Shown: piece after piece, positions 41,519 through 63,733 of the stretch | Layout: each line of letters starts with the position of its first letter | Numbering within the stretch: the first letter of the stretch is position 1 | DNA from: Ruegeria arenilitoris | Lineage (GTDB): Bacteria > Pseudomonadota > Alphaproteobacteria > Rhodobacterales > Rhodobacteraceae | Direction: 5' to 3' | Assembly: GCF_013035425.1 (NCBI RefSeq) | Contig: NZ_WQHX01000006.1 | Coordinates: 62,001 to 126,000, forward strand | Length of the DNA: 64,000 nucleotides | Translations under genes and position numbers: made by a program | Notes under the pieces: model-generated | What the model was told of the DNA's origin: nothing | The model's input: the letters and a program-made list of their open reading frames with translations, nothing else | The model's database searches: none

Positions 41519-42196
41519 TTAGAGCCGATCAGTGCGACGATCTGCAATCAGGGCCACCAGTTGTTTTTTAGTGCGTCCTATATGTTGCGCCAAAAGTCCG
41601 CATGCCGCGTCGACCTGACCCGCTTTCGCCAGCTCCAGCAGTTCGCGGTGTTCCTTTCGGGCCCGTTTGCGCTTTTTCATTACGCTCAAATGCATTCGGA
41701 TATATCTGTCGGATAGCAATGACACCTTATGCAGCAGGTCATTTGTCAAGCTGCGCCCGGCTGCCGCGTAAAGCGAGGCGTGAAACCGTTGATTCAGCAT
41801 TCCCCACTGGCTTACGTCGTTAACGTCATATGACAACTCCATTTGATCCAGAATGCCCTGGCATTTTTGGAGTTGTGCCGCAGTCATCGCCGGAATGGCA
41901 CGACGAAAGAGATCAACTTCGATAAGCGCTCGTAAATCGAAGATCTCGGAAATTTCGTCAAGCGAATGCTCCGTAACCGTGGCACCGCGATTGTTTTCCA
42001 ACTGCACCAGACCTTCGGCATCCAACTGCTTCAACGCTTCCCTTACCGGCATACGCGAGACATCATATTCATCAGCTAGCGCTTCTTGCCGAATCGTTTC
42101 TCCTTCCACTAGCTCGCCTCTCAAAATCCTCTCTCGCAGATCACTCGCGATTACGTCTGGAAGGCTTTGCCGATGGATTGCGCGTTTTGCCGACAT
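41519..42196 (-). CDS. GntR-family (FCD) transcriptional regulator of the hydroxyproline cluster
   Basis: 225 residues: N-terminal winged HTH (about 8-75, IRQEALADEYDVSRMPVREALKQL) and a C-terminal all-helical FCD effector domain (about 85-215). The ATG at 42196 lies 1 base after the stop of the proline-racemase gene, with GGGGCGCGTAGG before it; a GTG at 42217 is the alternative. Same direction and probably the same operon as the three hydroxyproline genes upstream. A likely operator lies before the first of them. Confidence 0.88.
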   Translation of the reverse strand: MSAKRAIHRQSLPDVIASDLRERILRGELVEGETIRQEALADEYDVSRMPVREALKQLDAEGLVQLENNRGATVTEHSLDEISEIFDLRALIEVDLFRRAIPAMTAAQLQKCQGILDQMELSYDVNDVSQWGMLNQRFHASLYAAAGRSLTNDLLHKVSLLSDRYIRMHLSVMKKRKRARKEHRELLELAKAGQVDAACGLLAQHIGRTKKQLVALIADRRTDRL

Positions 42197-42197
42197 C

Positions 42198-43220
42198 CTA
42201 CGCGCCCCATGTGTCACTTAGGCGATATCCGTCCGGCCAAGGATCGTCGGGGTCCAGCATGTGCTGGTGAATTCCCGTGATCCATCCTCGGCCCGAGATT
42301 TCCGGGGTGATCGCAACCCGCCCGCTCAGATCGATCTTGTCGATAATTCGGCACCGGAACTCACTGTCTATGACAGAACGCGCGTAATAATGATCTGTTA
42401 GTTGCATCTGCCCCTTCGCCAGAAAAACGGCCATCCGGGCCGAAGCTCCGGTGCCGCACGGTGATCTGTCTAATTTTCCGGGCTTGATTGCGACTGTATT
42501 TCGGCTGGTCAGCACGTTGCCCTCGCGCTTGAGCGCTCCGGCAATCTGGCAGAACGAAATATGGTTCCAGTCTCTGGTCGGGTGGTTGAAACCCAGTTGT
42601 TCGTTGGCCGCGTCGGTTATCCTCGCGCCTGTTCGTGCCAGTTCTTTTCCCTCGTCTGGAGTTAACTCAAAATCCAGATCCGCAGCGTTGACGATAACAA
42701 AACTGTCGCCTCCAAACGCAGTGTCTACTCGCAACGTTCCAATACCAGCCACTTCAATCCGCGCGTCCAGTTGGTCAACAAAGCTGGGAACGTTCTGAAC
42801 ATAGATACGCTCTGCCTTACCGTTTCGGCACTCTGCCCTTACGCGCACCAATCCACCCGGAGCCTCGAGCGTCAGATGTGTCTCTGGTTCTTGCATTGGG
42901 AAAAGCCCGCCGTCCAACAACACGGTCGAGACACAAATCGAGTTTGATCCGGACATAGGCGGCGTATCTTCCGGTTCCATAATAATGAATGCCGCATCGG
43001 CCTCAGGATTCTTGGCAGGGACCAGAAGGTTGACGTGGCGAAAGACGCCTCCGCGCGGTTCGTTAAGTAAGAAATTTCTCAGCGTCTGGTCATTTGCTAA
43101 AAAGCCCCGCTGGTCCCAAACTGTGTCCCCAGGAGGGGGGACCACTCCGCCCACTATTACATCTCCTACCTCGCCTTCAGCATGGGCAGAAATCACATGA
43201 ATGGTTTTGCTGCTTCGCAC
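42198..43220 (-). CDS. Proline racemase family protein, Ser/Cys type
   Basis: 340 residues of the proline racemase fold. The first catalytic position is Ser (S90 in [10 protein letters not shown]) and the second is Cys (C255 in DRSPCGTGA). In this family Cys/Cys and Ser/Cys members are mostly 4-hydroxyproline 2-epimerases, and Thr/Cys members are trans-3-hydroxyproline dehydratases. So an epimerase-type activity on a hydroxyproline is likely but the exact substrate is open. It is paralogous to the Cys/Cys protein encoded next to it, which suggests two different substrates. Confidence 0.85.
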
Positions 43221-43251
43221 GGCGCGTCCTTCTGAAAACGGATGATCGGCA

Positions 43252-44184
43252 TTAAATCTCTATCCCGGAACGGAAGGGATCATTCGCATCAAACATCAAA
43301 TTCGCCTCAGACATGATGAATGCCTGACCTTTAATCCTGGGTATGATACCTCCGTTTGGCCCGAGCTTGTACGACAGGTGATAAGTGCTGCCGATAACGC
43401 TTTCCTGAATGATCTCCTCGCCTTCTGCCAATTCACCTTCTGCCGCAAGACAAGCCAAACAAGCGGAACAGCCAGTGCCACAGGGTGATCGGTCATAGTT
43501 GTTGTCTGGGCAAAGAACAAAATTGCGGCCGCTCACCCCCTTGCGAGGGGACTGTTCTTGTAGGATTACATGATCCACCGGTTCCGAGTTCGCACCTTTT
43601 AAGCCGCTGGCCATCGCGGCTTTGCGAATAGCGATTGTCAGCTTTGTCATCGCGGCAATATTGCTGGTTTCCACTGGTATCGGGCTGGGATCAACAATGA
43701 AGAACCAATTCCCGCCATACGCCACATCCCCAACAACGCACCCATGACCGGGCACATCCAAATTCACAGCTCGTCGCACTCTGCGGCTTTCGATGTTGGT
43801 CACGCTAACTGTGTTCTCGTCGTGCAATTCGACAGTTACCACCCCAGCAGGAGTTTCTATTCGATGTATTCCGGTATCAATTCGACCCAAATGCGCTAGC
43901 GTCACAGCCAACCCGATTGTGCCATGACCACACATGCCCAATACAGCGTCGACATCGAAATAGATGACACCAGTCACGCATGAACGGTCGACTGGTTCCA
44001 CCAGCATCGCGCCGACCATCGCCGGTTGGCCGCGCGGCTCCAACAAGATCGAACGATAAAGTTCCTTGTAATCTGCAGCCAACCGTAACGCTCGCTCCGC
44101 TAAAGTACCAGAACCCAGATCTGGTGCACCCGTGAGGATAACTCTCGTAGGTTCACCTCCTGTGTGGCTGTCAATCACATGCAT
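43252..44184 (-). CDS. 4-hydroxyproline 2-epimerase (Cys/Cys proline racemase family)
   Basis: 310 residues with both catalytic cysteines, C85 (GMCGHGTIG) and C235 (DRSPCGTGC), and the N-terminal [11 protein letters not shown] block. It would interconvert trans-4-hydroxy-L-proline and cis-4-hydroxy-D-proline, the entry step of hydroxyproline breakdown. Start at 44184 ([10 protein letters not shown]), overlapping the end of the upstream DapA-family gene by 10 bp. The next enzymes, a D-hydroxyproline oxidase and ketoglutarate semialdehyde dehydrogenase, are not in the window. Confidence 0.9.
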
Positions 44185-45134
44185 TCGGCAATGACCCCAC
44201 CCTGTTTTGACCAATCTGCAAACCATTTGCGAAACAAGTCATATTGCTGTTCGCAATAATTCTTCTGCGCATCGGTCAGAGAGTCAGAGGCGTTGAAATG
44301 GAGACGGTATTCCTGTTCGCCATTCAGAACAAGCAAGTGTTTGTAGTAAAGAACAAGGTCCGGACCCTCGTCAAAGCTGGACAACACCTGAATTGCCTCG
44401 GTTAATTCCTGCGCTCGCTGACGTGCCTCGGCATGACCGTTCGCCGCTTTTTCGGACAAAGCACCCAAAAGCAGCGTTTCGGCAGGCAAAGCATTACCTA
44501 TACCCGTAATAGAACCAGTTGCTCCGCAATTGACATAACCATGATAGACTTCGGTATCCACACCGACCATTAGGGTAACCTGATTATCCTTGCTGGTGAT
44601 GTTTTCCGCTGCATAGCGCAGATCTTCGCCGCCTCCGAACTCCTTGAACCCGATCAGATTTGAATGTTCGGCGCGTAGTTCAAAAAACAGATCTGCACGC
44701 GTAGCAAAACCATAATACGGGCTATTGTAGATGATCGCAGGTACGTCCGGCGCAGCGGACAAAATTTCCCTAAAATGGTTCTTCTGAGCCGCAGCCGAGC
44801 TGCCACGCGATAGAACCCGCGGGATCACCATCAAACCCACTGCACCGCATTTCTGCGCATGAGAGGCAAGGGCCACTGCGGATTTCGTATTGATTGCACC
44901 AGTACCAACAACCACTGGCAGCCCCGCATCGGTCAATCGCTCGACGCCTTCCATTCGCTGTGCATCGGTCAGCAGCGGCCAGTCACCCATCGAACCGCAA
45001 TAAACCACGGCGGACATACCTGCCGCAACTAACTCACTCCCTTTTCGAACAAGCGCATCGAAATCCGGAACGCGACCTTCTGTGCAAGGGGTCATGAGAG
45101 CCGGCATAGTGCCGGTAAAAACGTTTGAAACCAT
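44175..45134 (-). CDS. DapA-family aldolase/deaminase, probably pyrroline-4-hydroxy-2-carboxylate deaminase
   Basis: 319 residues of the dihydrodipicolinate synthase/N-acetylneuraminate lyase superfamily, with Schiff-base Lys K164 (IGFKEFGG) and Tyr Y136 (IIYNSPYYG). The block YCGSMGDWPLLTDAQRMEGVERL is, from memory, typical of the hydroxyproline-pathway deaminase, which converts pyrroline-4-hydroxy-2-carboxylate to alpha-ketoglutarate semialdehyde. The neighbouring epimerases support this. First gene of the cluster; a GntR-type palindrome lies 64-83 bp before its start. Confidence 0.85.
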   Translation of the reverse strand: MVSNVFTGTMPALMTPCTEGRVPDFDALVRKGSELVAAGMSAVVYCGSMGDWPLLTDAQRMEGVERLTDAGLPVVVGTGAINTKSAVALASHAQKCGAVGLMVIPRVLSRGSSAAAQKNHFREILSAAPDVPAIIYNSPYYGFATRADLFFELRAEHSNLIGFKEFGGGEDLRYAAENITSKDNQVTLMVGVDTEVYHGYVNCGATGSITGIGNALPAETLLLGALSEKAANGHAEARQRAQELTEAIQVLSSFDEGPDLVLYYKHLLVLNGEQEYRLHFNASDSLTDAQKNYCEQQYDLFRKWFADWSKQGGVIAECM

Positions 45135-54847: not shown

Positions 54848-55707
54848 TGAGCCGCGTCTACGACGATCGACCCTGCGAGCTGGGCGAAGGACCTCTTTGG
54901 CATCCAGAACGGCAACAGCTATTCTGGTTCGATATCGCGACCAAACGGATGTTAAGCCGAGAAGGAGCGAACCCAAAATGCTGGAAATTTGACGAGTACG
55001 TTTCTGCCGCAGGCTGGGTGGATCGGAATACACTGCTGATAGCATCGGAAACCGGCCTTTGGCGATTTGGTTTAGAAAATGGTCAAAAAAGTCAAATCGT
55101 TGAAATTGAGACAGACAATCCGACAACCCGCTCCAATGATGGGCGAGCAGATCCATGGGGCGGGTTCTGGATTGGAACTATGGGCAAACAAGCTGAGCCG
55201 AGCGCAGGAGCGATATATCGATTTTGGCACGGCGAACTGCGTCAATTAGTTTCGGACGTGACAATTTCCAATGCGATCTGTTTTGCGCCAGACCGTTCGT
55301 GCGCTTATTTCTGCGATACGTTCACCAAACAGGTTATGAGGTGGACGCTTGACCCAGAAACAGGATGGCCCGTGGGCGACAGCCACCTTTTTCTGGACCT
55401 TCGGGATGACGGTCTGAACCCTGACGGTGCCGTCGTTGACGCGAACGGAAACATCTGGATCGCTCAGTGGGGTGCGGGTCGCGTCGCCGCGTACGATGTT
55501 AATGGACTCTTTATTCGGGCGGTATCAGTTGATGCGCAGCATCCCTCGTGCCCCGGATTTGGCGGTCCTGACCTGACGACACTGTTCTGCACGACAGCCC
55601 GTGAAGGGCTGAGTACGGATGCCATCAAAATACAACCTTCCAACGGGATGACCTTCTTGAAACAAGACGTCGCCCGGGGTCAAGCGGAACACAGAGTTAT
55701 CATATGA
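54847..55707 (+). CDS. SMP-30/gluconolactonase family lactonase
   Basis: 286-residue six-bladed beta-propeller lactonase: metal residues in CELGEGPLWHP, NDGRADPWGGFWIGTM and NPDGAVVDANGNIWIAQWG. It would open galactonolactone made by galactose dehydrogenation. Starts with GTG that overlaps the dgoA stop by 1 nt; its own stop overlaps the GH42 start (ATGA). Confidence 0.9.
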   Translation: MSRVYDDRPCELGEGPLWHPERQQLFWFDIATKRMLSREGANPKCWKFDEYVSAAGWVDRNTLLIASETGLWRFGLENGQKSQIVEIETDNPTTRSNDGRADPWGGFWIGTMGKQAEPSAGAIYRFWHGELRQLVSDVTISNAICFAPDRSCAYFCDTFTKQVMRWTLDPETGWPVGDSHLFLDLRDDGLNPDGAVVDANGNIWIAQWGAGRVAAYDVNGLFIRAVSVDAQHPSCPGFGGPDLTTLFCTTAREGLSTDAIKIQPSNGMTFLKQDVARGQAEHRVII

Positions 55708-57623
55708 AACCGGAACTTGGCGTTTGCTATTATCCCGAACATTGGCCCGAGGAGATGTGGGTCAAAGATGCAGCAAAGATGGTGCAGTCTGGCCTGACAT
55801 GGGTTCGCATGGGCGAATTTGGTTGGAGCCGGATGGAACCTGCGCCGGGCGACCTGCAATTCGGATGGCTGGATCGAGCGGTCGAGACATTGGGAAAGGC
55901 CGGTCTCAAGGTTGTCATGGGTACACCGACAGCGACACCGCCGCGCTGGATGCTGGATAAACACCCCGACATGCTAGCCGTCGATGCGCAGGGAAACCCC
56001 CGCAAATTTGGATCGCGCCGCCATTACTGTTTCAGCCACCACGGTTATATCGAAGAGTGTGCGCGGATAGCTGGTATAATGGGCGAGCGTTATGGCCAGA
56101 ACCCACATGTTGCTGCATGGCAGATCGACAATGAATACGGCTGTCACGACACAACAATCAGCTATAGCGCCGCCGCGTTAAACGCATTCCGCCGTTGGTT
56201 GGCAGACCATTATGGAACAATAGAAGCACTGAATTTTGCGTGGGGGAACGTATTTTGGTCAATGGAATACAGCAGTTTTGAGCAGATCGAACTGCCCAAC
56301 TTAACAGTGACCGAACCTAACCCGGCCCATGCGTTGGCTTTCAAGCGTTTCAGTTCGGATCAGGTGGCGGCGTTTAACAAAGCGCAGTGTGATGTTCTGC
56401 GGAAATTCACAAAAGCGCCGCTGCTCCACAACTACATGGGACGCGTTTTGGATTTCGATCATTACAAAGTCGGCGAAGACTTGGACATTGCCACTTGGGA
56501 TAGTTATCCCATTGGATTTCTTTCAGACCGCTTGGAAGCCCACAGCGAGCATAAAACAGTGTACCTGCAACAAGGCGACCCAGATATGCAGGCATTCCAT
56601 CACGACCTTTATCGCTCTGTGGGGCGCGGGCGCTGGTGGGTCATGGAACAACAGCCCGGACCTGTAAACTGGGCACCATATAATCCGGCGCCATTGCCCG
56701 GTATGGTTAGACTTTGGTCTTTGGAGGCGGTCGCCCATGGAGCGGAAGTCGTAAGCTATTTCCGCTGGCGCCAGGCGCCCATGGCACAGGAGCAGATGCA
56801 TGCAGGGCTACTGACTCCTTATAACCGTGCAGCCCCGGCTCTGAGTGAGGTGCGCCAAACTGCAGACGAACTGGCCGAGCTGGGTGAGGTTGAACAGAAA
56901 CAGGCACAGGTTGCAATCGTGTTAGACTATGCATCGAATTGGGCTTGGGAGACACAACCACAGGGCGGTGGGTTCGATTATTTCCAGCTTGTCTTCTCCG
57001 CATATCGTTCTTTACGAAAGGCGGGTTTATCGGTGGATTTTATACCACCGGATATTACTCCCCATGGCGCGTATAATTTGATCCTAGCGCCCGGGTTGGC
57101 CACACTGAATGACGAATTAGTCAAGCGTTTAACCAGTGTGTGCAATCTTGGCATTTTGGGACCCCGCACAGGAGCCATTACCAAGGATTTCCAGATTCCT
57201 GATCGCGGTCGGCCAGGTGTCGATTGTTTGGACTGCCAAGTGGAATTGGTCGAGACCCTGCCCCCCAACATTTCCCGTGCCGTTCAGGGCGGTGGAGCAA
57301 TGCAACATTGGGTGGAACGTCTGTCCGGATCGGCCCGGGATTTACTTTGCTTTGAGGACGGCACTTCCGCTTTAAAAGAAGGCGGTGGCCTTTGGTATTT
57401 GGCCGGCAATCCGGATGACGCGTTGTGGGACCGCGTCATCAATCTGGCCGCCCAAAATTCAGGCCTGACCCTGCACCAAATGCCGGAAGGGTTAAGGCGA
57501 CGGGAAACGTCAGACACAGTTTTCTTGACGAATTACAACGCGCACCCCGTCGAATGGCATGGACAAATCATTAACGGTTGCGATGTCGCGATCATTAAGC
57601 CAGAATCTCATGATCCTGCCTGA
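55704..57623 (+). CDS. Beta-galactosidase, GH42
   Basis: 639 residues: catalytic barrel (about 1-375) with acid/base E144 (WQIDNEYG) and nucleophile E315 (VMEQQPGPVNW), a trimerisation domain (about 385-575) and a short C-terminal domain. Conserved start LGVCYYPEHWPEEMW. No signal peptide, hence cytoplasmic. It releases galactose from beta-galactosides after import. Having GH36 and GH42 in one operon means both anomers can be used. Confidence 0.95.
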   Translation: MKPELGVCYYPEHWPEEMWVKDAAKMVQSGLTWVRMGEFGWSRMEPAPGDLQFGWLDRAVETLGKAGLKVVMGTPTATPPRWMLDKHPDMLAVDAQGNPRKFGSRRHYCFSHHGYIEECARIAGIMGERYGQNPHVAAWQIDNEYGCHDTTISYSAAALNAFRRWLADHYGTIEALNFAWGNVFWSMEYSSFEQIELPNLTVTEPNPAHALAFKRFSSDQVAAFNKAQCDVLRKFTKAPLLHNYMGRVLDFDHYKVGEDLDIATWDSYPIGFLSDRLEAHSEHKTVYLQQGDPDMQAFHHDLYRSVGRGRWWVMEQQPGPVNWAPYNPAPLPGMVRLWSLEAVAHGAEVVSYFRWRQAPMAQEQMHAGLLTPYNRAAPALSEVRQTADELAELGEVEQKQAQVAIVLDYASNWAWETQPQGGGFDYFQLVFSAYRSLRKAGLSVDFIPPDITPHGAYNLILAPGLATLNDELVKRLTSVCNLGILGPRTGAITKDFQIPDRGRPGVDCLDCQVELVETLPPNISRAVQGGGAMQHWVERLSGSARDLLCFEDGTSALKEGGGLWYLAGNPDDALWDRVINLAAQNSGLTLHQMPEGLRRRETSDTVFLTNYNAHPVEWHGQIINGCDVAIIKPESHDPA

Positions 57624-57713
57624 AAAGCGACGCGAACATCAAAAAATTTGATAACGCTAACATAAGCTGTTAGGGGCGGGTTTGCTGGTCTCGTTCACGA
57701 ACAGGTTTCATGC

Positions 57714-59606
57714 ATGAACTACACTCGTTCCGATTTCCCGGAGTCTTTCCTATTTGGTCTCTCGGCAAGCGAGCCTGGCGCTGAAACGCAGACCAAAGGA
57801 TTTGACAGCTTCCGGTTCCCGATCCACTGGCACGAGGTGCTGCCCAGGGGACGTGGGCAACCTGATGGTGTCGGCGTCGCCCGTGTTGAAAGACTGGTCG
57901 AAACGGTTCTAGAGCGAGGGATGCGACCTTGCGCGGTTCTCGACGCCACTCTGGTCCCATCGGAATTGGCTGATCTTGGCGGTTGGCGCAATCGCGATAC
58001 TGCGGATTGGTACGCCGATTTCAGCGAACTCGTAACGACAAAAATTGGGGACCGCCTGTTCAGCACGGTTTCGAAAGTATCCGCGGAAATAGCGACAAAG
58101 CAAGATAGCAGGTCGTTGGCCCGAACCTTGCATCATCGATTGTTGGCCAATGGCCGCGCCAATCGAGCTATGCGAAGCCTGGGCATGAGCAATTTGGGCG
58201 TCGAAATTGACTTACAAGAGCCCGGGCATGCCACGCTTCTCTCAGCCATTTTTAGTGGTAGCTACCCACAAGACTTCCGCGCCTCTCTTAGTGCACATCT
58301 TCCAACGGGATGGGAGCAGGATTTTTCCACCATCGCAACCCCCGTTGATTGGCTTGGAACCACGGTGCATGAACCCCGTGATCTGAAATCGCTTACGCCC
58401 TTGATTGCAGCGGAAACCCTAGACACAGCAATTTATGTTTCGGTTCTAGCGGAAAGTGAATCAGATCTTGTGAATCACGTTGACGCTATTCTCAGTTCAA
58501 GCGCATCGATGCCCATATCAGGGCTTTTCGTCCAAGCGGAAAATCAAGAAGTCCTTGAAGCGTTGCAAGCTGCATTAACATCAACGGAGCTTCCTGCGCC
58601 ATGGGTAAAACCCACGGGCACTGTTCACGACCATTGGAACCTCATCGCGGACGTCGGCGGCACCAATACCCGCCTGGGCATTTCCATCAACGGAACCTTG
58701 ACCGAGTTGCACAAATATCCGACCGGCACATTAGAGGACTTGCGCGAGGCACTAGTTGGTGTGCGAGAAAAGGTGGGGACAGCCCCCCACGCAGTAGTGG
58801 CAGCAGGCGCCGGGCCAGTTCATAATGGAACCATTCATTTGACCAACGCAAACCTAATGTTGTCCGAGGTCGAGCTTGCCCGCGCCACTGGCGCGGAAAG
58901 AACCTTTGTAATTAATGACTTCACCGCAGCCGCGTGGTCAGTCGCGGATATCAGCGACGCAGACGTCGCGGTTTTACAAGGCGCAAATACTCCTCCTGCC
59001 GGGACCCGCTTGGTTGTGGGTCCCGGCACCGGTTTGGGTGTAGGAGCTTTGCTGTATTCAGAGGGACGTTATCATACCGTGTCCGGGGAAGGCGGCCATA
59101 TGGGATTGTCACCGCGCCATCGAGGCGAAGTTGACGTTTTCGATGCGGCCAGACATATCGCTCCGGATTGTTTTTTTGACAACAGCCTCGCGCTGGAGGC
59201 CGAAATGTTCCTGAGTGGGACCGGTTTGCCTATTCTGTATCAGGCGGTGGGCGTGGTCGAAGGTCAGGTCAACAGTCAGGTTAAAAGTGCCAAGGATATT
59301 CTGCAAACCGCACAGGACGGAACCGACGCTTGCGCGGTTAAGGCTGCGCGCATTTTCACGGAACATCTTGGGGCGATAATGGGTGATCTCGCTGTGGCTC
59401 TGATCCCGGTCGGGGGCGTTTTTCTGGTTGGCGGTGTCGCTGAAAAAAACCGCTGGCTGTTTGGTCAGGATTTTCTGGATGCATTCAATGCAGGCGGACG
59501 ATTCAAAAAAATTCGACGTAGCATGAACCTTTACATTTCCGAGCAAAAAGAGTTTGGCATTGTTGGCGCTAACAACTTCTGCAAAAATGCGTTGGTGCAA
59601 AACTAG
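57714..59606 (+). CDS. Fusion of a degenerate GH1-like domain and a glucokinase
   Basis: 630 residues in two parts. Residues 1 to about 295 follow the outline of a GH1 beta-glucosidase, shortened: FPESFLFG, FRFPIHWHEVLPRGRG, GGWRNRDTADWYADFSELV, LHHRLLANGRANRAMR and the DFSTIATPVDWLG block. Where GH1 has TLNEP with the acid/base Glu, this protein has SKVSA (about 120-124). Where GH1 has ITENG, it has QAENQ (E276). So the glycosidase is almost surely inactive. Residues 307-630 are a Glk-family glucokinase: ADVGGTNTR, catalytic N401-D402 in NDFTAAAW, GPGTGLGVG, EGGH (459-462) and LSGTGLPILYQAV. The kinase half looks active and would phosphorylate glucose. Last large gene group of the galactoside operon, 90 bp after GH42. 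Confidence 0.88.
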   Translation: MNYTRSDFPESFLFGLSASEPGAETQTKGFDSFRFPIHWHEVLPRGRGQPDGVGVARVERLVETVLERGMRPCAVLDATLVPSELADLGGWRNRDTADWYADFSELVTTKIGDRLFSTVSKVSAEIATKQDSRSLARTLHHRLLANGRANRAMRSLGMSNLGVEIDLQEPGHATLLSAIFSGSYPQDFRASLSAHLPTGWEQDFSTIATPVDWLGTTVHEPRDLKSLTPLIAAETLDTAIYVSVLAESESDLVNHVDAILSSSASMPISGLFVQAENQEVLEALQAALTSTELPAPWVKPTGTVHDHWNLIADVGGTNTRLGISINGTLTELHKYPTGTLEDLREALVGVREKVGTAPHAVVAAGAGPVHNGTIHLTNANLMLSEVELARATGAERTFVINDFTAAAWSVADISDADVAVLQGANTPPAGTRLVVGPGTGLGVGALLYSEGRYHTVSGEGGHMGLSPRHRGEVDVFDAARHIAPDCFFDNSLALEAEMFLSGTGLPILYQAVGVVEGQVNSQVKSAKDILQTAQDGTDACAVKAARIFTEHLGAIMGDLAVALIPVGGVFLVGGVAEKNRWLFGQDFLDAFNAGGRFKKIRRSMNLYISEQKEFGIVGANNFCKNALVQN

Positions 59607-59643: not shown

Positions 59644-60570
59644 ATGATCTTGTGCTGCGGAGAAGCCCTGATTGACATGATCGCCGAACCCACGTTGTCG
59701 GGACAGCAGGGCTTTGTGCCCCATTCTGGAGGGGCGGTTTACAACACAGCAATTGCGTTGGGAAGGTTGGGAGCCAGAGTGGGCATGCTCACCGGTCTGT
59801 CGTCAGATATGTTCGGGCAACAGCTAACGGCTGGCCTACAAATCAGTCATGTCGACACCACTCATGTTATTAAATCGAACAGACCCACGACTTTGGCCTT
59901 TGTTCAGCTTAAGGACGGGCACGCCACATACAACTTTGTTGACGAAAATACAGCAGGAAGGATGCTGACCGCTGCCGAAATGCCTGTTCAGCTACAAGGT
60001 GTTTCTGCACTGTATTTGGGGGGGATAAGCCTTGCTTGCGAGCCGTGCGCTGACGCGTATGCGCAGCTTTTGTTTCGGCATGGCGCTGATCGGGCGGTCA
60101 TGCTGGACCCAAACATTAGGCCAGACTTTATCAAGGACCAAACCAAATATCGGACCCGGCTTAACAAAATGATCGCGCAAGCTGATATCGTCAAAGTTTC
60201 AGACGAAGACCTGGACTGGATTATCCCTGGCCCCGAGACCCTTTCTGAAAAGATCCCATTGTTAACGCAGGCTGGCCCGAAATTGGTTATATTGACCCAT
60301 GGTAGTGCTGGTGCGACAGGATATACGGCGGATGGAAGCAAGGTGACAGTCCCAGTCCAGAAAGTGCAAGTTGTAGACACTGTCGGGGCCGGAGATACGT
60401 TTAACGCTGGAGTGCTGGCTGAACTGGATCAAGCTGGGTGCCTGACAAAACCCGGTTTGCGTTCTTTATCCAACGACGGCCTTAGGAACGCTCTGGAAAA
60501 AGGGGCAAAAGTTGCCGCGATCACTGTCTCGCGTGCCGGGGCGAACCCGCCGTGGGCCCATGAGCTTTGA
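59644..60570 (+). CDS. PfkB-family sugar kinase, fructokinase-like
   Basis: 308 residues of the ribokinase fold: N-terminal CCGEALIDMI and GGAVYNTAIALGRLGA, C-terminal DTVGAGDTFNAGVLAEL with catalytic Asp251. Sequence is closest in style to bacterial fructokinases. With the D-lyxose-isomerase-like protein encoded next, it could phosphorylate a ketose such as fructose. Same direction as the galactoside operon, 37 bp after the glucokinase fusion. Confidence 0.88.
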   Translation: MILCCGEALIDMIAEPTLSGQQGFVPHSGGAVYNTAIALGRLGARVGMLTGLSSDMFGQQLTAGLQISHVDTTHVIKSNRPTTLAFVQLKDGHATYNFVDENTAGRMLTAAEMPVQLQGVSALYLGGISLACEPCADAYAQLLFRHGADRAVMLDPNIRPDFIKDQTKYRTRLNKMIAQADIVKVSDEDLDWIIPGPETLSEKIPLLTQAGPKLVILTHGSAGATGYTADGSKVTVPVQKVQVVDTVGAGDTFNAGVLAELDQAGCLTKPGLRSLSNDGLRNALEKGAKVAAITVSRAGANPPWAHEL

Positions 60571-62566: not shown

Positions 62567-63733
62567 TCAATGAGTTCGGCGGCGAATACGAAATACTTCG
62601 ACTTCCTCAGCGAGACCTTTAAGCGATTGGAGCCCCAGTGTTTCCACCCGCACAGGCGCGTAACCTTGAACATTTGACGTGATCAATATCTGCTCGTCCA
62701 AGGTCTTGCACAAACTCTGAACTCTGCTGGCCACGTTTACGGCCGACCCGACAACCGTAAAGTCAAGTCGATCCGGGCTGCCGATGTTGCCGAAAGTAAC
62801 TTCTCCGAGGTCTATTCCGATCACAAACTCGATCTGTTCCCGCTTTTCCTCAGATGCGTTACTGTTGTAAATATCGAGGTTCGCTATGGCTTGGGTCGCG
62901 GCTTCGACCGCGGAATTGCAGGCATTTTCAGCGCCTGGTGTCGCCTCGAAAATCGCCAGAACACCGTCACCCATGAATTTTAGCACGTCTCCGCCATTAG
63001 CTCGAATTGGGTTCACCACCATATCAAAATAGTCGCCCATAATATCGAGTAGCTTAGCCGCTGGCCAGACATCCGACTTTGCAGTGAACCCTCTTAGGTC
63101 TGCAAAAAGGATCGCAGCAGAAACGGTAATATGCTCACCACGTTTTATGTTTCCGTTGTCAATTTCCCGCGCCGGCGCATCGCCCATATACGTACGCAAA
63201 AGGCTTCTTTGGGATTCCCTCATTGCGATGGGTTCCAACGCCGAAGACAATGCGTGCCGTGTGGCTTCGAGTGTGCGAATATTGTTTTGTGAAAAACCAT
63301 CCGCATGTTCGGTGCAAAAGCTTGATCCCTGAACCGATCCGTCACCATATTCGAGAGGCATCGCCAGAAAATCAGTCGCGCCACCCTCTTTCAATTCCCG
63401 ATAGACTTCGTGCATTTTCGACAGATCGACATCCACAAGCCTTTTGCGCAGACACGATCTGGTTTTGACCACATACTCAAATGGACTGCCGTGCCAAGCT
63501 CCTGAGTGGCGGATAGTGATCGGAACAGTATATTTCTGGGTCCCTTTTGGCGTCCATATGATCCCCCAAGCGCTTATGAGCGGATTGGAGTAGTTCTGCC
63601 CAATCCGCACACGCGAAAGCGGGACGCCCAGTTCCCTCAAGGCCGAGCAATAGTGTGAAACGACAAGTGTTTCATCGCCCAGAATCCGACCTACGGAATT
63701 CAACCAATTGATCAGTTCTTCTACCGTTTGCAT
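62567..63733 (-). CDS. Class III adenylate cyclase with an N-terminal GAF-like domain
   Basis: 388 residues: an N-terminal domain of about 180 residues (GAF-like by size and pattern) and a C-terminal class III cyclase domain (about 200-375). Metal-binding D212 (LFADLRGFT) and D256 (LKFMGDG), adenine-specifying Lys before FMGD, Asp in DFTVVG and catalytic Asn/Arg in NVASR are all present, so it should make cAMP from ATP. No membrane helix: a soluble, probably small-molecule-regulated enzyme. Convergent with the EamA gene, 258 bp apart; nothing recognised in that gap. Confidence 0.92.
   Translation of the reverse strand: MQTVEELINWLNSVGRILGDETLVVSHYCSALRELGVPLSRVRIGQNYSNPLISAWGIIWTPKGTQKYTVPITIRHSGAWHGSPFEYVVKTRSCLRKRLVDVDLSKMHEVYRELKEGGATDFLAMPLEYGDGSVQGSSFCTEHADGFSQNNIRTLEATRHALSSALEPIAMRESQRSLLRTYMGDAPAREIDNGNIKRGEHITVSAAILFADLRGFTAKSDVWPAAKLLDIMGDYFDMVVNPIRANGGDVLKFMGDGVLAIFEATPGAENACNSAVEAATQAIANLDIYNSNASEEKREQIEFVIGIDLGEVTFGNIGSPDRLDFTVVGSAVNVASRVQSLCKTLDEQILITSNVQGYAPVRVETLGLQSLKGLAEEVEVFRIRRRTH

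Follow-up and report, generated by a model that had tools for sequence, protein, structure and literature searches.

The window analysed here, a stretch of 64,000 nucleotides from Ruegeria arenilitoris (contig NZ_WQHX01000006.1, positions 62,001 to 126,000), contains a gene in which a shortened glycoside hydrolase family 1 (GH1) domain precedes a Glk-type glucokinase. In our judgement the product is probably a glucokinase whose GH1 half turned redundant and persists as a folded, catalytically dead N-terminal barrel. Both catalytic glutamates have been lost from the window protein, shortening of the same fusion has recurred within the genus, the deletions fall mainly in loops of the barrel, and constraint has relaxed on the GH1 part while the kinase remains under strong purifying selection.

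Domain composition and loss of the catalytic residues

The gene is a single open frame of 630 amino acids without an internal stop. Pfam Glyco_hydro_1 matches residues 29-115 above its cut-off (E-value 9.1e-16), and the NCBIfam profile TIGR03356 (BGL) widens the GH1 match to residues 27-222 at a score far under its full-length cut-off. The Pfam Glucokinase family (PF02685) matches residues 310-624 (E-value 1.3e-63) and spans profile positions 1-312 of 314, in agreement with a first-pass annotation, made from the sequence alone, that had described a complete Glk kinase fused to a GH1 part. The kinase domain contains ADVGGTN, NDFTAA, GPGTGLG and GEGGH, to which we assign their presumed roles as Glk motifs. 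Its score of 163.5 bits falls below the cut-off of 225.45 for the equivalog TIGR00749, so the substrate is not fixed by sequence. Between the domains, residues 298-301 form the only run of three or more residues in the structural model with a predicted local distance difference test score (pLDDT) below 50.

Among 54 genomes of the genus (the window genome being G000), 31 encode an intact GH1-Glk fusion of 774-778 amino acids and 19, the window included, a shortened fusion of 611-707 amino acids, which in all 19 is in frame and free of internal stops along its whole length. One further genome (G430) encodes Glk alone (358 amino acids); of the remaining three, G418 has nothing that matches PF02685, G421 has an unfused glucokinase-like frame that matches poorly, and in G437 a contig end truncates the gene. 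The fusion is the sole PF02685 match in all 50 genomes that carry one.

All 31 full-length forms carry the NEP and ENG motifs with both catalytic glutamates, and none of the 19 shortened forms has the two together: the acid/base glutamate survives in one (G398) and the nucleophile in four (G395, G396, G399 and G408). The window protein, aligned with the 31 full-length relatives, has neither. At the NEP place it reads VSKVS, so that the first-pass annotation had correctly located the loss of the acid/base glutamate at SKVSA. Its claim of an altered ENG strand also stands, with IYVSVLAE at residues 240-247, but the QAEN that it took for that strand (residues 274-277) aligns at the end of strand 8, in the W..LDNYEW region of the relatives. 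The losses extend to further positions that we take to be GH1 active-site residues: W123, Y294 and W392 are kept in 0 of the 19 shortened forms, E167 in one, N166 in two, E351 in four and Q22 in six, with R78 (13/19) and H122 (10/19) the commoner survivors. Judged from this alignment, the window copy is a degenerate descendant of the intact fusion. The first-pass annotation had linked the existence of relatives with an intact NEP/ENG pair to simple decay of this copy; all 31 full-length forms are such relatives, but plain decay is not borne out: the loss has occurred repeatedly, never breaks the frame and leaves the strands of the barrel in place.

Distribution of the deletions across the barrel

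Of 434 reference positions, 146 have no counterpart in the window protein, close to the roughly 150 residues by which the first-pass annotation had judged its GH1 part to be short, and 116 of these are in catalytic-face loops; across the shortened forms, 273-366 positions are retained. Strands and helices were assigned from a model of a full-length form (mean pLDDT 75.2, with low-confidence loops) that was used only for this marking. Per shortened form, 78-94% of deleted positions lie in the strand-following, catalytic-face loops, which make up 44% of all positions. Only three forms have lost strand positions (2-3 each) and the other 16 none, while random placement of deletions of equal lengths expects 7.5-17.7. 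Under independent re-placement, loop enrichment is significant in every one of the 19 forms (p ≤ 0.0032) and strand sparing has p = 0.0008 to 0.088 by form, exceeding 0.05 in two (G398 and G412); a circular-shift test of the deletion places gave p = 0.010-0.025. As the shortened forms share kinship, these do not amount to 19 independent tests.

The fraction of strand positions lost is between 0.00 and 0.05, while helices 1, 5, 6 and 7 have been partly trimmed, the missing stretches bordering deleted loops. For helices 1, 5, 6 and 7, respectively, the window's group of nine forms has lost 74%, 53%, 35% and 36% of positions, and the other ten shortened forms 8%, 18%, 16% and 9%. The AlphaFold model of the window remnant is an eight-strand barrel, and a structure search with this model, whose alignment included intact GH1 rows, matches the GH1 (beta/alpha)8 fold. 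Together with the Pfam match, the model suggests that the GH1 relationship and fold proposed in the first-pass annotation have been kept. The retained parts look like those needed for the fold and the lost parts like those needed for catalysis.

Recurrent shortening and selection on the two halves

In a tree of the kinase DNA, the shortened forms split into separate groups. A single clade of all 19 is rejected (approximately unbiased test, p-AU = 4.1e-6); group B, comprising nine shortened forms, is not rejected as one clade (p-AU = 0.107). There have been at least two independent origins of shortening, unless intragenic recombination has parted the histories of the kinase and GH1 regions. This tree may join long branches, such as that of G424 with that of the window genome.

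Ratios of nonsynonymous to synonymous substitution (dN/dS) were compared for pairs picked by hand, with G395 used in two pairs and dS above 1 in several. In seven pairs of shortened forms, dN/dS was 0.14-0.59 for the GH1 part and 0.03-0.09 for the kinase; in ten pairs of full-length forms the corresponding ranges were 0.03-0.08 and 0.03-0.12. The upper 95% limit for the GH1 part was at most 0.48 in six of the seven shortened pairs. The median ratio of GH1 dN to kinase dN was 3.53 in 171 shortened pairs versus 0.61 in 465 full-length pairs. Constraint on the remnant is therefore relaxed but mostly not absent, and the kinase is under strong purifying selection.

Replacement GH1 genes and loss of the operon regulator

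A separate full-length GH1 gene occurs elsewhere in 12 of the 19 genomes with a shortened fusion; G430 also has one, and the 31 genomes with an intact fusion have none. All 13 of these genes encode NEP and TENG (TENG is also present in 27 of 28 GH1 genes of other genera), and all 13 adjoin a LacI gene and sugar ATP-binding cassette (ABC) transporter genes. Of 27 named loci with the intact fusion, 26 have the fusion itself in this place, after LacI and ABC transporter genes. The exception is G417, where LacI is followed by a 96-amino-acid GH1 fragment on another contig (G417:C2:64186-65438), which is probably the relic of a stand-alone GH1 operon. At an E-value threshold of 1e-90, LacI is absent from exactly the seven shortened-fusion genomes without a second GH1, as well as from G418, G421 and G437. 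The shortened fusion thus correlates with either a second GH1 or loss of the operon regulator.

How the GH1 half may have become redundant

From the 31 intact forms and their transporter and LacI neighbours, the ancestor would have been a two-step enzyme, its GH1 half freeing glucose from beta-glucosides taken up by the cell and its Glk half phosphorylating that glucose. Selection on GH1 catalysis would lapse wherever a separate GH1 gene provided the first step or the beta-glucoside operon had been lost. Glk would still be needed and, because it follows in the same frame and has no second PF02685 match beside it in any fusion genome, the GH1 part would tolerate in-frame changes only. Active-site residues and catalytic-face loops could then be lost, at least twice independently, with strand-breaking changes purged, most simply since the kinase would suffer from about 300 unfolded residues ahead of it. 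The enzymatic activities, the order of events and the reason for the retention of the barrel are what we infer here.

Several observations weigh against this account. The core has not come through untouched: the share of positions missing from the window protein is 60% for helix 1, which its model shows as a single turn, 53% for helix 5, 38% for helix 6 and 40% for helix 7. The alignment behind that AlphaFold2 model held 14 of the 31 intact rows, which biases it toward a barrel. MAFFT may align gaps to each other, making the deletion ends inexact. The closest shortened pair, G395/G396, has a GH1 dN/dS of 0.59 with limits of 0.33-1.37, compatible with neutrality. A tree of rpoB-rpoC, which requires eight changes between intact and shortened states, is poorly resolved, and rpoC of G419 was matched in part only. 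The window genome also has two ROK-family matches over the cut-off, making a second glucokinase there possible. In addition, G430 has Glk without a GH1 part, and the barrel is therefore dispensable there unless G430 represents the pre-fusion state. A tblastn search upstream of its Glk-only gene found no GH1 relic, and this gene may be either an erosion end point or a pre-fusion state.

The dead barrel could instead have a non-catalytic job, such as holding an oligomer together, regulating the kinase or docking it to partner enzymes of the operon, an explanation that we regard as unlikely although a structural role is possible. It would fit the number of reference positions that the shortened forms keep, the retention of the barrel through at least two independent losses and the below-neutral GH1 constraint in six of the seven pairs. 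There are also 172 positions at which the 31 intact forms do not vary and which at least 16 of the 19 shortened forms still have; 39 of them are unchanged wherever a shortened form has kept the position. However, folding constraint alone would keep the same conserved positions, and G430 carries Glk without a barrel. In its broadest and equally doubtful version, loop-shaving would be a repeatable process by which an active enzyme is reduced to a minimal structural triose-phosphate isomerase (TIM) barrel; at least two lineages would have gone this way, and the barrel would now control how the only Glk-family kinase of the genome assembles, stays stable or docks to partners.

Purely neutral decay, in which a drifting upstream domain stays in frame only through the downstream kinase, appears improbable. 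The strongly raised GH1 dN/dS of the shortened forms, the fit of the most recent pair to neutrality and the ongoing trimming of helices 1, 5, 6 and 7 speak for it, but a ratio of 1 is excluded in six of seven pairs, deletions avoid the eight strands, and the window remnant is still modelled as a barrel, albeit with the aid of intact rows. Least credible of all, to the point that we give it hardly any weight, is the idea, raised in the first-pass annotation for sensing of a glucoside and channelling of glucose, that the remnant senses glucose or a glucoside or channels substrate to the kinase: despite the modelled GH1 fold and the partial survival of R78 and H122, the other sugar-site positions (W123, Y294, W392, N166 and Q22) are absent from most or all shortened forms and the pocket-lining loops are deleted, so that binding of a sugar through the old GH1 site is unlikely.

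Gene neighbourhood of the window gene

The setting of the window gene is given in Table 1. In the window and in seven named relatives with a shortened gene, what stands ahead of the fusion is instead a galactose pathway cluster and a beta-galactosidase gene, which in the window we take to be of family GH42; the downstream carbohydrate kinase is presumably of the PfkB type. The same galactose/beta-galactosidase neighbourhood surrounds the kinase-only gene of G430 (L075 5800-7077). Judged from gene order, the window kinase probably handles glucose released by the neighbouring galactosidases.

A perfect palindrome precedes the window gene. Seven named loci of the same neighbourhood have it too, at a distance of 54-57 bases from the gene and with 0-2 mismatches, and so does G430, 39 bases ahead of its Glk-only gene. 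It was found in none of the 27 named intact-fusion loci and none of the ten other named shortened loci, and across the whole window the pattern is no more frequent than expected by chance. It resembles an operator.

Table 1 Features of the window associated with the fused gene (positions are those of the window)
Feature	Position	Strand	Basis or remark
Beta-galactosidase gene directly upstream	55704..57623	+	counterpart on NZ_CP065362.1 annotated so
Operator-like palindrome CTAACATAAGCTGTTAG (perfect, CTAACA-N5-TGTTAG)	57657..57673	+	begins 57 bases ahead of the start codon
Fused gene, dead GH1 barrel and Glk glucokinase	57714..59606	+	630 amino acids; frame and Pfam matches
Dead, shortened GH1 domain, residues 1-293	57714..58592	+	profile matches and modelled eight-strand barrel, helix 1 one turn
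Lost acid/base motif place, VSKVS, residues 119-123 (NEP in full-length relatives)	58068..58082	+	alignment
Lost nucleophile motif place, IYVSVLAE, residues 240-247 (e.g. IYVTENGM in full-length relatives)	58431..58454	+	alignment
Linker, residues 294-306	58593..58631	+	model pLDDT
Glucokinase domain, residues 307-630	58632..59603	+	Pfam, structure match
Carbohydrate kinase gene directly downstream	59644..60570	+	adjoins the fusion or Glk gene in 44/45 named loci

Elsewhere in the window, positions 41519-45134 have the look of what we assume to be a hydroxyproline-type catabolic group, with two racemase/epimerase-like proteins, a dihydrodipicolinate-synthase-like protein and a GntR-type regulator. 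A 388-amino-acid protein is encoded at 62567-63733 on the reverse strand; its C-terminal part is presumably an adenylate/guanylate cyclase domain.

Origin of the fusion

Set against 28 GH1 genes of other genera, taken as the best matches of the search, the genus has a single GH1 clade that unites the GH1 parts of the fusions with the stand-alone genes (support 100/99); the order of fused and separate genes inside that clade is not cleanly resolved. A Glk gene of 28-34% identity adjoins GH1 in 25 of these 28 loci. Among 12 loci outside the genus that carry the nearest Glk (L214-L225, 43-49% identity), GH1 is a neighbour in two, L214 and L215, where the GH1 and Glk genes (Glk identity 45-49%) are separated by 49 and 28 bases between aligned ends with a stop between them; no GH1 was found in the examined stretch of the other ten. 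These two gene pairs possibly picture the pre-fusion state, although with only two of the 12 nearest-Glk loci having GH1, the case that this Glk was the fused neighbour is weaker. From these gene arrangements, it is likely that the fusion arose from neighbouring operon genes.

Across 394 genomes sampled from the family, of which two belong to the genus, the two fused kinases match at 75% and 86% identity and the next best at 49%; among the matches listed, the ten rows following the fused kinases are frames of 326-364 amino acids. None of eight longer-frame places outside the genus, picked among the matches listed, is a fusion: at six, GH1 and Glk lie side by side as two genes parted by a stop; a seventh lacks GH1 within 5 kb, and the eighth, at a contig end, lacks Glk.

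Relation to known proteins

The intact Ruegeria fusion is the closest comparison: it is 53-60% identical to the window protein (14 intact rows aligned), its domains follow the same order, and 26 of 27 named loci have the carbohydrate kinase gene downstream, as the window does. It differs in having both catalytic glutamates and its own LacI and ABC transporter genes ahead in 26 of 27 named loci. The Thermotoga maritima GH1 beta-glucosidase (1od0) has 24% identity to the window protein over the aligned part; the window protein, unlike that enzyme, has lost both glutamates and 146 reference positions and is fused to a kinase. Escherichia coli Glk (1sz2 and 1q18) resembles the window kinase in structure (Foldseek E-value 3.5e-20, TM-score 0.84 on the target) at 26% identity, but lacks an N-terminal barrel. 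The bifunctional regulator/glucokinase of NCBIfam NF010701 is likewise a long protein with a Glk part, though there Glk is N-terminal in the profile and the partner named is a transcriptional regulator. Klotho, an animal GH1-related protein, is among the PDB sequence matches of the window protein; it also lacks the full catalytic pair, but is part of an animal receptor, with full-size domains and no kinase.

As a concept, domain atrophy in the account of Prakash and Bateman (2015, PMC4432964) comes closest; it concerns the loss of core elements and the shrinking of a domain within a longer protein. The window protein differs in keeping its strands and shedding active-site loops and the adjoining helix ends. 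In a review of pseudoenzymes (PMC10211241), retained functions include allosteric regulation and scaffolding. A literature search on GH1-glucokinase fusions and on dead glycosidase or fused domains turned up, judged from its listings, no description of such a protein, consistent with the first-pass annotation, which knew of no described enzyme of this build.

In annotated records, two shortened fusions go by the name 'family 1 glycosylhydrolase', although their intact part is the kinase, and three longer ones, in plasmid records, by 'ROK family protein'. The only Glk-family kinase of a genome can therefore hide under the name of an activity that, by sequence, has been lost. More broadly, a single genus offers a natural series that runs from an intact two-domain enzyme through partly stripped to deeply shaved forms, together with a Glk-only genome and known replacement genes. 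With this series one can ask directly which features of a domain survive when selection on its catalysis has ended, and whether a cell makes use of a dead fused domain or only tolerates it.
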